A stretch of 24,270 nt of DNA from a virus. Positions 1,771 to 16,990 of this stretch are shown one piece after another. The position numbers and the translations under genes are program-made. Each line of letters begins with the position of its first letter. Position 1 is the first letter of the stretch. The notes beneath the pieces are model-generated. The model worked only from the letters and a program-made list of their open reading frames with translations. It did not search any database and was not told where the DNA came from. The stretch covers positions 1-24,270 of IMG/VR virus record IMGVR_UViG_3300005435_000402; one strand, given 5' to 3'.

Positions 1771-3504
1771 ATGAGCGCCAAGCTTCATATTTCCGAAACA
1801 CTTTCCCTACCGGTCGACGCGGCGACGCAGACGTTTGCTTTTGTCGCACGCAAGGGCGCCGGCAAAACCTACGCGGCCGGCAAATTGAACGAACTGCTTT
1901 TGGACGCCGGCGTGCAGTGTGTGATTCTTGACACGGTCGGCAATTGGTACGGATTGCGGATAGCCGCGGACGGCAAGGGAAAAGGTTTTGATATTCCCGT
2001 TCTCGGAGGCCTGCGCGGTGATATTCCGCTGGAGGCGACCGGCGGCGAATTGGTCGCTGACCTGGTCGTGGACACCGGACGGAGCGTTATTCTGGATCTG
2101 AGCCAGTTCAGCCAATCGGACCGAAAACGATTTGCGACGGCATTCGCTGTGCGGTTGTGGCAGCGGAAAAAGGCGGAACGCAATCCCTCGCCGGTTTTTA
2201 TTACGTTGGAAGAGGCGCAGTTGATCGTGCCGCAAATGGTGCGTGGTGATGACGCGCGCATGGTTGGCATTTGGGAGGAGATTATTCGCCTGGGCAGAAA
2301 TTACGGCATTGGGGTGGCGATGATTTCGCAGCGGCCGCAATCGGTGAACAAGGAAGTGCTGACGCAGACGGAGTGCCTGGTCGTGCTGCAGGTGAACGGC
2401 GCGCCGGAGCGCAAGGCGCTGAAGGAGTGGATTGTTCACCAGGGGATGGACACCGGTCTCGTGGACGAGCTGCCGACGCTGCCGATCGGCACGGCTTATA
2501 TCTGGTCGCCCCAATGGCTCGGTATCCTGGAGAAGATCAAGATTGCGGCAAAAAAGACTTTCGACGCCAGCGCCACGCCGAAGGTGGGCGAGAAACGTTT
2601 GCAGCGTGAACTCGGCGAACTCGACCTGGAAGCGTTCAAGGAAAAGATGTCCGCGACGATCGAGAAGGCGAAGGAAAACGACGTGGCGCTTTTAAAGCGC
2701 ACAATCGCCGACCAGCGCCGGGAGATTCAAAAGCTTCAGGTGCCGAAGGTGGCAGCGCCGCCGGCTACGGTTGAGACCACGAAGGAAGTGCCCATCCTGA
2801 AAGAGAAGCAGATCCATTCTCTGTTGGCAGTCACTGATCGCGTGGAAAAATTCGCGAGCCAGCTGATCAAGCTCGGCAGTGATTTGGCGGAAGCCATTCG
2901 CACAGCCAACCGCGACGCACAAGCCGCCACGACGAAACCGGTTTTGGTTCGCGCGCCGGCGAATTCGCATACTGCACAAAAATACAGTATGCCGGTGCGT
3001 GTGCCTTCCCGATCGGTGGCAGTGCGCTCGGCGCCGACCAACGGCGACATATCCGGCGGATTGCGGCGGATGATGGTGGCGCTGGCGCAGCGCAGTCCGT
3101 TGAACAAGCGCCAGCTTGGCGTGAGAGCGGGCCTATCGAGCACCAGCGGCACATTTGGAACGTATCTCGGACGACTGCGCGCGAGCGGTTATGTGGATGG
3201 AGATGGCGATGTCCTGGTGTTGACCGAAAGCGGCCGCGCCGCGCTGGGTAATTACAGTCCACTTCCGGAAGGGCGCGACTTGCTGAACTACTGGTTGAGC
3301 AATCTGGGGCAGGGGGGCGCCGGCAGGATGTTGTCTGTATTGGCGGAGGCTTATCCGCAACCACTCTCCAAAGAAGAGTTGGGCGCGCGGGCGAATATCT
3401 CGCACACGAGCGGAACCTTTGGAACTTACCTGGGAAAGCTGCGGACCTTGGAATTAGTCGAGGGCCGGAGCGAACTCACAGCAAGCAGGGAGTTTTTCGA
3501 ATGA
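1771..3504 (+). CDS. HerA/FtsK-like ATPase with duplicated C-terminal winged-helix-like repeat
   Basis: A 577-residue P-loop ATPase of the HerA/FtsK type (DUF87-like), the group of hexameric DNA translocases. Walker A is ARKGAGKT at 26-33 (Lys32). Walker B is PVFITLEEAQ at 141-150 (Glu147/Glu148). A conserved SQRPQ segment follows near residue 190. Residues about 285-330 form a charged coiled coil. Two copies of one module close the protein: TSGTFGTYLGRLR near 456-468 and TSGTFGTYLGKLR near 544-556, each preceded by an LxKxxLGxRA helix, so a duplicated winged-helix DNA-binding unit is likely. Cellular HerA works with NurA nuclease on DNA ends. Here no NurA is seen, but a DnaQ-type exonuclease lies in the same operon. 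A terminase is encoded separately, so this is probably not the packaging motor. Confidence 0.85.
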   Translation: MSAKLHISETLSLPVDAATQTFAFVARKGAGKTYAAGKLNELLLDAGVQCVILDTVGNWYGLRIAADGKGKGFDIPVLGGLRGDIPLEATGGELVADLVVDTGRSVILDLSQFSQSDRKRFATAFAVRLWQRKKAERNPSPVFITLEEAQLIVPQMVRGDDARMVGIWEEIIRLGRNYGIGVAMISQRPQSVNKEVLTQTECLVVLQVNGAPERKALKEWIVHQGMDTGLVDELPTLPIGTAYIWSPQWLGILEKIKIAAKKTFDASATPKVGEKRLQRELGELDLEAFKEKMSATIEKAKENDVALLKRTIADQRREIQKLQVPKVAAPPATVETTKEVPILKEKQIHSLLAVTDRVEKFASQLIKLGSDLAEAIRTANRDAQAATTKPVLVRAPANSHTAQKYSMPVRVPSRSVAVRSAPTNGDISGGLRRMMVALAQRSPLNKRQLGVRAGLSSTSGTFGTYLGRLRASGYVDGDGDVLVLTESGRAALGNYSPLPEGRDLLNYWLSNLGQGGAGRMLSVLAEAYPQPLSKEELGARANISHTSGTFGTYLGKLRTLELVEGRSELTASREFFE

Positions 3505-4033: not shown

Positions 4034-4044
4034 GGGGGGGGGGG
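4034..4044 (+). repeat. G11 homopolymer just upstream of a start codon
   Basis: Eleven consecutive G residues end three bases before ATG 4048. No other clear ribosome site is present, so the tract itself overlaps the Shine-Dalgarno position. Runs of this length slip readily and could vary translation of the replication gene, or could be a sequencing or assembly length error. Confidence 0.8.
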
Positions 4045-4047
4045 ATA

Positions 4048-5307
4048 ATGGTTAAAGGGGCGCTCACGCGCGAGCAATTCGAGGCCGCAGAATTGCGGGT
4101 GCGACGCGAGATCGCGGCGCGCGACTCCGTGCTGCTGGAGCCGAATGTGAAGCCCCAACACCGCAGGGGTTTTGACGCCGAGGAGCTGCGGCTGCTCGAT
4201 TATTTTGTGGAGCGACAGTTTCGAAAAGAGGAGCCGCGGACCGCCGCCTCTTTCCGGACTTACCGGCAGTTGGGAGCGGCCACGCAGACGTTCTCCCATT
4301 CGCACGAGGCGCTGAAGCGTTTGCTCGATAAAAACGTGCTGGCGCCGCTGCCATTTTCGACGCAACAATTGCCGGCGGAAAAGAGGAGCAACACCACGGA
4401 CTGCTGGCATTGGTACGGGATTAATTTAAACTTTGGGCTTTGGCCGCCACCCTTGAAGCGGCCGGAAGAGTTTTGGGAGCAGGGCTCGCTGCCGGATGAG
4501 TTTGCTGATATGCTCCGCGAAACCTTCATTGAAATTTCGGCATGTGGCAGCACACCAGTTGTTGCCAGCGCAGGGACGGACCGGGACGCCGGATCCGTTT
4601 CGGTTCCTAATGCCGACAAAGGCGGCCCGGAGATGATCTCTCCGGGCCGTCCCACTTCGTGCGGCGATTCTAAATCTGAATTGCCTCAACCTCAACAGAA
4701 TCCGCAATGGCTGGAAGATTTGCGCCTGCTCAAACAAGCGCTGGCGGAAAATCGGCCGGTCGCCGAGCTACAACAGTTAGCTGCGGAACTCGAAGCGCGT
4801 ACCGCCCCAGGGGACGCTCCGTCCGGAAAAGTTGTACCGCCCCAGGGGACAAAGCTGTACCCAGCCGCATCGTGTACCCCGGGAGGGTACGCGACCAACA
4901 CCAATAACGACGCGGAAAAACCCGGCGCTGTACCGCCCCAGGGGACGTACCCTCACGCGCGCGCGGTAGCTAGCTTAGCTCTTGAAAAGAAAGCTAAGCT
5001 AGCTATGCCGAGCGTACCCCGGGAGGGGACAGTCTCTCCAGCGAAGGTGACGGAGGCTTGGAGCTGGCTGCAAAAAGTCGATTCCACCGGAGGATTGCTG
5101 GTGCAGCGTTTTGCTGAGCGCTGGCGGCTGACGTGCGAGCTTTACCCGAACTACGTGCTAAACCGGTTGCGGGGAGCTTTTGAGGAACACATGCGGCGAG
5201 TCGAAAAGAAGGATCCAACGGTCGAACCGATCGAGGTGCCGCTGGGCTGGCTCTCAGCCAAGGCCCGCGACGATGGACGCATGGAACGGTTTAAACGAAA
5301 GCGATAG
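4048..5307 (+). CDS. replication-initiator-like protein (phage O-like architecture)
   Basis: A 419-residue protein with three parts. Residues about 20-110 look like a winged-helix unit (LLDYFVERQF ... SFRTYRQLGAA ... SHEALKRLLDKNVL) as in phage replication initiators that read 'conserved region then helix-turn-helix'. Residues about 165-325 are a low-complexity Pro/Gly/Ala linker. Residues about 328-419 are a helical C-terminal domain (VTEAWSWLQ ... FAERWRLTCELYPNYVLNRLRGAFEEH). The linker DNA carries five 17-bp repeats and two strong hairpins. That recalls lambda O, where the origin lies inside the initiator gene between the DNA-binding and helicase-loading domains. No helicase or loader gene is recognised nearby. 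ATG 4048 follows the G11 tract. The initiator role is inferred from architecture and repeats, not from a recognised signature. Confidence 0.6.
   Translation: MVKGALTREQFEAAELRVRREIAARDSVLLEPNVKPQHRRGFDAEELRLLDYFVERQFRKEEPRTAASFRTYRQLGAATQTFSHSHEALKRLLDKNVLAPLPFSTQQLPAEKRSNTTDCWHWYGINLNFGLWPPPLKRPEEFWEQGSLPDEFADMLRETFIEISACGSTPVVASAGTDRDAGSVSVPNADKGGPEMISPGRPTSCGDSKSELPQPQQNPQWLEDLRLLKQALAENRPVAELQQLAAELEARTAPGDAPSGKVVPPQGTKLYPAASCTPGGYATNTNNDAEKPGAVPPQGTYPHARAVASLALEKKAKLAMPSVPREGTVSPAKVTEAWSWLQKVDSTGGLLVQRFAERWRLTCELYPNYVLNRLRGAFEEHMRRVEKKDPTVEPIEVPLGWLSAKARDDGRMERFKRKR
4623..4649. other. 11-bp perfect hairpin within the replication gene
   Basis: CGGCCCGGAGA (4623-4633), loop TGATC, TCTCCGGGCCG (4639-4649). 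The stem is perfect and GC-rich, in the start of the low-complexity linker (about residues 192-201). It resembles an intrinsic-terminator stem without a T-run. It lies about 150 bases before the first iteron-like repeat and could be part of a structured origin or a transcript pause site. Confidence 0.7.
4799..5030 (+). repeat. five 17-bp iteron-like repeats (candidate replication origin)
   Basis: GTACCGCCCCAGGGGAC occurs exactly at 4799-4815, 4834-4850 and 4930-4946. The related GTACCCCGGGAGGGTAC is at 4874-4890 and GTACCCCGGGAGGGGAC at 5014-5030. Across the first and last forms 13 of 17 positions agree, and each unit has small internal dyad symmetry. Copies at 4799 and 4874 start at codon position 2, the others at position 1. 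Identical DNA is therefore read as TAPGD or as VPPQGT, and the repeat is conserved at DNA rather than protein level. Start-to-start spacings are 35, 40, 56 and 84. Extra GTACC-like fragments occur at 4857 and 4947. Confidence 0.8.
4967..5005. other. 14-bp perfect inverted repeat between iteron-like copies
   Basis: TAGCTAGCTTAGCT (4967-4980), 11-base loop, AGCTAAGCTAGCTA (4992-5005). The perfect stem sits between the fourth and fifth 17-bp repeats and encodes the low-complexity peptide around ASLALEKKAKLA. It is AT-richer than its surroundings, so it could be a cruciform or unwinding element in the putative origin. Confidence 0.8.
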
Positions 5308-7868: not shown

Positions 7869-8251
7869 CTTCACCGGAACGCATACAGCCGATCCCGGCG
7901 CCCACGTCCTCCGGCAGGAGCGTGCGAAAGGTTTATCCCGTCGGTAACGCCTATTTGACGGAGCGCGAGATGGACGTGTTGCAGTTGCTCACACAGGGCT
8001 TGATGAGCAAGCAGATCGCCAAGGAGTTGCATGTTTCGATCAAGACGATCGAGAAGCACCGGCAGAGCATTTATTACGCGCTGCGGGTGAACAGCGCAAT
8101 GGCAGCCACACGGGTGGCGCTGCGCACTGGATTGATTTCGTTTGAGGAGTGGCTCGGCGGCGATGCCGGCGAGAACGCGCATCATTCCGATTACGTTGTG
8201 TCGCGACACAACGCGGTAGCGGCCTCGCCGCCGGCGTGGTTTGTGAGTTAG
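7865..8251 (+). CDS. LuxR-type HTH transcription regulator (128 aa)
   Basis: A 128-residue protein with a clear LuxR/GerE HTH at about 31-75: LTEREMDVLQLLTQG, SKQIAKELHVS, then recognition helix IKTIEKHRQSIYYAL. It continues with the family's usual MAATRVALRTGLI. The N-terminus is a short Pro/Arg-rich arm, with no receiver domain. ATG 7865 overlaps the membrane-protein stop as ATGA. Its placement right before the terminase genes would suit an activator of late genes. A 20-bp palindrome lies inside its 3' end at 8194-8213. Together with the minus-strand HTH gene it gives two short, stand-alone LuxR-fold proteins in one phage region. Confidence 0.88.
   Translation: MTSPERIQPIPAPTSSGRSVRKVYPVGNAYLTEREMDVLQLLTQGLMSKQIAKELHVSIKTIEKHRQSIYYALRVNSAMAATRVALRTGLISFEEWLGGDAGENAHHSDYVVSRHNAVAASPPAWFVS
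8194..8213. promoter_or_regulatory. 20-bp perfect palindrome before the terminase operon
   Basis: CGTTGTGTCGCGACACAACG is a perfect 20-bp dyad about 50 bases before the terminase small-subunit start. Its core TGTCGCGACA recurs with one change (TGTCCCGACA) at 13846-13855, at the portal stop codon. Perfect dyads of this length are typical operators, but it could also be a dispersed host-type palindrome. Confidence 0.5.
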
Positions 8252-16297: not shown

Positions 16298-16990
16298 ATG
16301 AAAAAATTGATTAAAAAAATTCGCGCCCGGCTTGCCGGGATGATCAAGGTGGCCGCTCCGGCGGCCGCCGCGCTCACGCTCCTGGCGTGCGCGCCGGCGG
16401 CGAAGGCTTCCGGGACGTTCTACGCCAACACGCTGCTGGCGGGGGGCACCCTGGTCCTGACCAACAACACCGCGTTCACCAACGGGGTGAACTCCACCGC
16501 TTATGTGCCGTTGCTCTCCGAGCAGTATCCGGTCGGCTTCGGCGGAGGCACCAACTGGTGGGCCAACGGCTGGACCTATTACACCAACCAGAGCGGTGTG
16601 ATCGTCACCAATCCGCTGCCGGTGTTCGCGACCAATGCGAACTGGGCGTCGGACGCCAGGCTCCTGCCAGATGCCAACGGCAACGTTCCGAGCGTCAGCG
16701 TCTTCGCCAGCATGTATGGGCCGGACACGACCAGCACCAACACGCTGACGATTGTCCTGGGCGGCGTAGTCGGCACCAACCATCTGACCGCGGCGCAAAA
16801 TTTGTTCACCTTCGCCATCAAGGGATTGGGGACGAATTATTCCAACCTATCCACCAACTTGCCGGCGTCGTTCCTGCAGGGGATCGATGGAGTGTACATC
16901 AGCTACATCTCCCTGGATAACAAAGCGTCCACCAACAGCTATCTGCAGCAGTTGCGCCTGACCGGGTGGGGCCCGGGACCTAACGAGTAA
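16298..16990 (+). CDS. signal-peptide-bearing Asn/Thr-rich protein after the coat gene
   Basis: A 230-residue protein. Residues 1-37 are a textbook signal peptide: basic start MKKLIKKIRARL, hydrophobic core APAAAALTLLACAPA, and a likely cut after AKA37. The LLAC at 28-31 could alternatively be a weak lipobox. The mature part is rich in Asn, Thr, Gly and aromatic residues (NTAFTNGVNSTAYVPLL, GGTNWWANGWTYYTN), probably all beta. The position right after coat is usual for head decoration proteins, yet a Sec signal would send it out of the cytoplasm. An A-rich leader precedes the ATG. The function is unknown; decoration, surface exposure or exclusion are all open. Confidence 0.75.
   Translation: MKKLIKKIRARLAGMIKVAAPAAAALTLLACAPAAKASGTFYANTLLAGGTLVLTNNTAFTNGVNSTAYVPLLSEQYPVGFGGGTNWWANGWTYYTNQSGVIVTNPLPVFATNANWASDARLLPDANGNVPSVSVFASMYGPDTTSTNTLTIVLGGVVGTNHLTAAQNLFTFAIKGLGTNYSNLSTNLPASFLQGIDGVYISYISLDNKASTNSYLQQLRLTGWGPGPNE

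Follow-up and report, generated by a model that had tools for sequence, protein, structure and literature searches.

A probable lambda/SPP1-style intragenic replication origin in an orphan gene of an uncultured phage

Analysis of the window, which is the entire 24,270-bp viral record IMGVR_UViG_3300005435_000402, revealed five 17-bp sites inside an ORF of 419 aa and, between the fourth and the fifth of them, a palindrome of low stability. The stretch from 4799 to 5030 is probably an intragenic replication origin of the lambda/SPP1 style, bound by the product of the gene in which it lies. An earlier note on this DNA had proposed an origin at the same place. The components of that proposal that concern the DNA, namely selection on the DNA, clustering of the sites, their location in a linker, and the lambda-like plan, held up in our analysis, whereas the identity of the ORF as an initiator was not upheld by family matches. 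The features of the locus are as follows:

4048–5307, + strand: 419-aa orphan ORF, putative initiator (ORF call; domains read by eye)
4799–4815, + strand: iteron 1, subtype A, GTACCGCCCCAGGGGAC, frame 1
4834–4850, + strand: iteron 2, subtype A, GTACCGCCCCAGGGGAC, frame 0
4857–4862, + strand: half-site GTACCC
4874–4890, + strand: iteron 3, subtype B, GTACCCCGGGAGGGTAC, frame 1, perfect 6-bp dyad arms
4930–4946, + strand: iteron 4, subtype A, GTACCGCCCCAGGGGAC, frame 0
4947–4952, + strand: half-site GTACCC, abutting iteron 4
4958–5014, no strand: palindrome/hairpin, 23-nt arms 83% complementary, perfect arm 14 bp
4966–5006, no strand: candidate unwinding element, 61% AT, core of the palindrome
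5014–5030, + strand: iteron 5, subtype B, GTACCCCGGGAGGGGAC, frame 0

The five sites start at 4799, 4834, 4874, 4930, and 5014, with a spacing of 35, 40, 56, and 84 bp, and the cluster is located 750–980 bp inside the gene. Their consensus, GTACC-S-C-SSS-AGGG-K-AC (GTACCSCSSSAGGGKAC), fits all five and has no other match in the window; no copy was found upstream of any gene there. The exact 17-mer GTACCGCCCCAGGGGAC occurs at 4799, 4834, and 4930, against a chance expectation of 0.03 matches with at most three mismatches, and none of 100 shuffles reached three matches. The three exact copies and two variants that the earlier note had placed at 4799–5030 were thus confirmed. The variants, assigned here to subtype B, differ from the exact copies by five bases (GTACCCCGGGAGGGTAC, at 4874) and four bases (GTACCCCGGGAGGGGAC, at 5014) and were therefore missed by the 3-mismatch search; a single base distinguishes them from each other. 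The outer arms are common to both subtypes, which differ at core position 6, at positions 8–10, and at one arm base in a single copy. Within the sites, 12 of the 17 columns are invariant, and outside the 17 bp not one column is conserved in all five. The site at 4874 forms a perfect dyad, its 6-bp arms being separated by 5 nt.

In positional order, the sites occupy frames 1, 0, 1, 0, and 0 relative to the ATG at 4048, and they encode the peptides RTAPGD, VPPQGT, CTPGGY, VPPQGT, and VPREGT. Because two reading frames are used, identical DNA encodes both RTAPGD and VPPQGT, and the near-identical subtype B sites encode CTPGGY and VPREGT. In 500 synonymous-codon shuffles with the protein fixed, exact 17-mer pairings averaged 0.002 and never exceeded 1, compared with the 5 observed. 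Since protein-preserving shuffles fail to reproduce the sites, the constraint acts on the DNA, as had already been argued from the two frames, and we regard it as established.

A second element, absent from the earlier note, is the palindrome between iterons 4 and 5. Its hairpin arms, at 4958–4980 and 4992–5014, gave a DNA fold of −20.7 kcal/mol (z −4.3), and the perfect arm of 14 bp compares with a maximum of 10 in 100 protein-preserving synonymous shuffles. The least stable 41-mer of the region, 4966–5006, ranks at the 99.3rd percentile of instability in the window and at the 99.8th in coding DNA. This candidate unwinding element adjoins the sites, yet it is only 61% AT.

The rarity of such a cluster was evaluated in 1.43 Mb of sequence from 105 viral records, which were scanned for at least three identical 15-mers inside an ORF, in at least two frames and with a spacing of at least 18 bp. 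Besides a terminal repeat array in L038/L039, the cluster was the sole one of its type, and the window contained no further dispersed-copy cluster. A scan of 1065 ORFs for 5-mer clusters placed the window gene, along with genes of L016 and L009 (see below), among 33 that exceeded 25 shuffles, the top ones being mostly low-complexity. The exact 17-mer had no match in 2.9 million viral contigs. In 84,980 genomes, 27 isolated matches were detected, one per contig and many of them in Streptomyces, which is close to chance (roughly 30 for 257 Gb by our own estimate); none of the 27 was titled Verrucomicrobiota. The wider site consensus was matched once each in five of the genomes containing the 17-mer. 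Thus, the 17-mer is not an abundant, dispersed repeat, in agreement with the earlier proposal; the case is strong but not complete, as the 84,980 genomes may not include the host's own.

Inspection by eye divided the 419-aa ORF into an HTH-like N-terminal part (residues about 35–135), a low-complexity linker (about 165–325), and a C-terminal region (about 326–419). The earlier placement of the sites in the low-complexity linker was supported. Also by eye, residues ~68–100 look helix-turn-helix-like, and the ‘GINLNFGLW’ that follows recalls the end of Phage_rep_O domains; ‘LNLNFKTW’ in L140 was compared with it. The description of the gene as replication-initiator-like was not borne out by the searches: the ORF matched no initiator family in Pfam, PHROGs, NCBIfam, or PDB, nor did it give a family match with Phage_rep_O (PF04492). 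Homology to the latter was rejected after a test with a small profile of five members, with which the ORF ranked 765th (score −1.2). Two AlphaFold models, built without relatives, had a mean pLDDT of 42–43, too poor to show a winged helix or to search folds. Taken whole or in parts, the ORF had no usable homologue in viral contigs, genome contigs, phages, plasmids, or 24 related viral records, and the use of neighbour genes as bait returned nothing. A match in approximately 590 genomes of two phyla (E 2e-4) contained four stop codons and was taken as chance, and a weak match in L008 was rejected because it lies antisense to a gene of SbcC type. Among the proteins searched, none was recognisable as a helicase loader or a helicase of DnaB type.

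The genes for the two terminase subunits, small and large, are located at about 8.1–11.5 kb of the window, with the small-subunit gene at 8149, and the structural genes after them are syntenic with those of several IMG/VR phages. The early genes upstream include an exonuclease, a HerA-like ATPase, and a Mu Gam-like gene; no conservation of these early genes was found among the terminase relatives of the phage. The HerA-like ATPase (1771–3504) has relatives in nine non-syntenic IMG/VR phages (36–69% identity), its C-terminal region resembles tandem winged helices, and its best match in PHROGs is a family named terminase large subunit. Its homologues (L004–L012) lack synteny with the window, and their neighbourhoods yielded no relative of the 419-aa ORF. 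The 11-G run at 4034–4044, the only homopolymer that long in the window, stops 3 bp short of the start codon of the 419-aa ORF, in the position of a ribosome-binding site, and could vary in length. Rfam and tRNA searches of the window gave no result, and a scan for DnaA boxes found none. The GC-skew minimum envisaged in the earlier note is absent from the iteron cluster in this record, which is a 24-kb linear fragment.

Comparison with lambda and SPP1 demonstrated that the parts of the intragenic-origin plan are present in the window, where their sequences are unrelated and the sites more widely spaced. Lambdoid phages have their origin midway through gene O, and it consists of iterons and an AT-rich tract (PMC7466680). 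In lambda gene O (NC_001416), which we measured alongside, the four annotated iterons occupy frames 0, 2, 2, and 1 with a spacing of 20–24 bp and are followed by a very unstable A-rich stretch and then by a palindrome with 12-nt arms. Both loci thus have, within the linker of an initiator (a putative one in the window), dyad-containing iterons of 17–18 bp that fall in different frames, and both combine the iterons with an unstable segment and a palindrome. Because the unstable palindromic element is present besides the iterons, the likeness to gene O that had been claimed previously is stronger than was then known. However, the iteron sequences are unrelated, the window has five sites and lambda four, and the sites of the window, at 35–84 bp, are spaced more widely and less evenly than those of lambda. 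The unstable segment of the window is positioned between sites and within the palindrome, whereas that of lambda comes after the iterons, and the 419-aa protein has no detectable homology to lambda O. In the Bacillus phage SPP1, oriL is located inside the initiator gene 38 and contains direct repeats and an unwinding element (PMC6316719), an arrangement that the window resembles with its candidate unwinding element and putative initiator gene. SPP1 differs in that it possesses another origin at a separate location, as well as known genes for a loader and a helicase; none was recognised in the window. Judged by these comparisons, the plan appears to be a known one of the lambda/SPP1 kind, and its parts, the site sequences and the orphan protein, appear to be new.

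From this arrangement we infer that the five dyad sites of 17 bp are recognised by the HTH-like N-terminal region of the 419-aa protein, which probably sits as a dimer on the GTACC and GGKAC arms and perhaps also binds the two GTACCC half-sites. The assembled complex would strain the DNA and melt the weak palindromic segment of 41 bp that lies between sites 4 and 5. Recruitment of a helicase or its loader, for use of the region as an origin, would fall to the C-terminal part of the protein. The linker would tolerate whatever residues the sites encode, and for this reason identical DNA could be read in two frames.

A second candidate intragenic origin was found in L016 (IMGVR_UViG_3300031251_000962), the terminase of which is 58% identical to that of the window. 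In L016 and L018, two relatives with upstream sequence, a candidate replication gene lies directly before the terminase small subunit. The L016 gene (7467–8540) is HTH-like by eye and has a Ser/Asn-rich linker, in which nine copies of TCGA fall in mixed frames within 90 bp (8106–8193), ~600 bp upstream of the small subunit of the terminase; elsewhere in the 21.5-kb locus, the densest independent place has three. The 5-mer count of the cluster was reached by none of 100 synonymous shuffles, and the cluster overlies an unstable stretch at the 99.9th percentile. L016 resembles the window in that an HTH-like gene close to the terminase genes has, in its linker, a DNA-level mixed-frame cluster and a highly unstable segment. 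Its TCGA-type repeats, however, are unrelated to the GTACC sites, and its HTH-like protein is not alignable to the 419-aa ORF. Moreover, the L016 gene immediately precedes the terminase small subunit, whereas the 419-aa ORF lies about 2.8 kb before it. The candidate replication gene of L018, at a comparable position, weakly matches a primosomal protein (PHROGs E 8e-4); its VT-rich linker was discarded, being repeat-like in frame only and showing no excess over shuffles. L009, a relative via the HerA-like gene only, contains tandem 10-bp (GCAGATGCAC) and 7-bp (TCCCGAR) repeats in mixed frames at 16411–16525, in the linker of a 303-aa gene, with no unstable element in that linker. These genes illustrate the pattern and do not prove it because they were picked by inspection; a hypergeometric value of 1e-4 (three of four chosen genes) is not evidence, as the genes were chosen after the fact. 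In-frame repeat arrays were also observed in coding regions, namely a long array of ARDAR/AIDAR-type repeats in a 490-aa gene of L016 (2864–3410) and an array in L109.

Alternatively, the sites could be an operator array for a regulator of phage or host origin (possibly the 419-aa protein itself) that would repress or silence transcription across this early gene. The imperfect dyads are of operator size, an HTH-like region seems to be present in the gene, and the lack of copies elsewhere would suit a local switch. Operators, however, are usually located at promoters, whereas these sites lie far inside the gene and upstream of none in the window, and the unstable palindrome between them would be left unexplained; we therefore consider this reading unlikely. 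It is quite improbable that the sites serve partition, packaging, or recombination (as a parS-like, pac/cos, or res-like site) and lie in the 419-aa gene by coincidence. Partition and recombination sites are likewise known to contain arrayed dyads and hairpins, and the Gam-like end-protection gene and the terminase genes are within a few kb, but about 3 kb separates the sites from the gene for the terminase small subunit, and no ParA/ParB or resolvase match was found among the proteins searched.

We give the least credence to DNA without function, in which slippage or template switching would have produced short duplications in a low-complexity linker. Linkers tolerate duplications, and repeat-rich coding sequence is common in phage genes, as in the arrays of L016 and L109. 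Nevertheless, the copies are dispersed and not tandem, have sharp 17-bp edges, and occupy two frames; the two subtypes vary solely at core positions and at one base of an arm, and the co-occurring palindrome goes beyond what protein-preserving shuffles produce. An intragenic origin is the most economical explanation; each of its rivals accounts less well for dyad sites in two frames together with a weak palindrome.

More tentatively, and with considerable doubt, the 419-aa protein may found an initiator family unrelated in sequence to known ones, and phages of the terminase group may keep placing unrelated repeats in initiator linkers, with origins turning over rapidly and the plan being kept. 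The L016 comparison suggests a persistent plan in which repeats and proteins are replaced, a point relevant to the co-evolution of origins and initiators. If the intragenic-origin explanation is true, sequence alone would suffice to read off the origin and the initiator in an uncultured lineage of phages. Origins could also be revealed in phages whose initiators are without a recognisable homologue, by a simple signature in which several frames of a linker contain identical DNA overlying a weak duplex.
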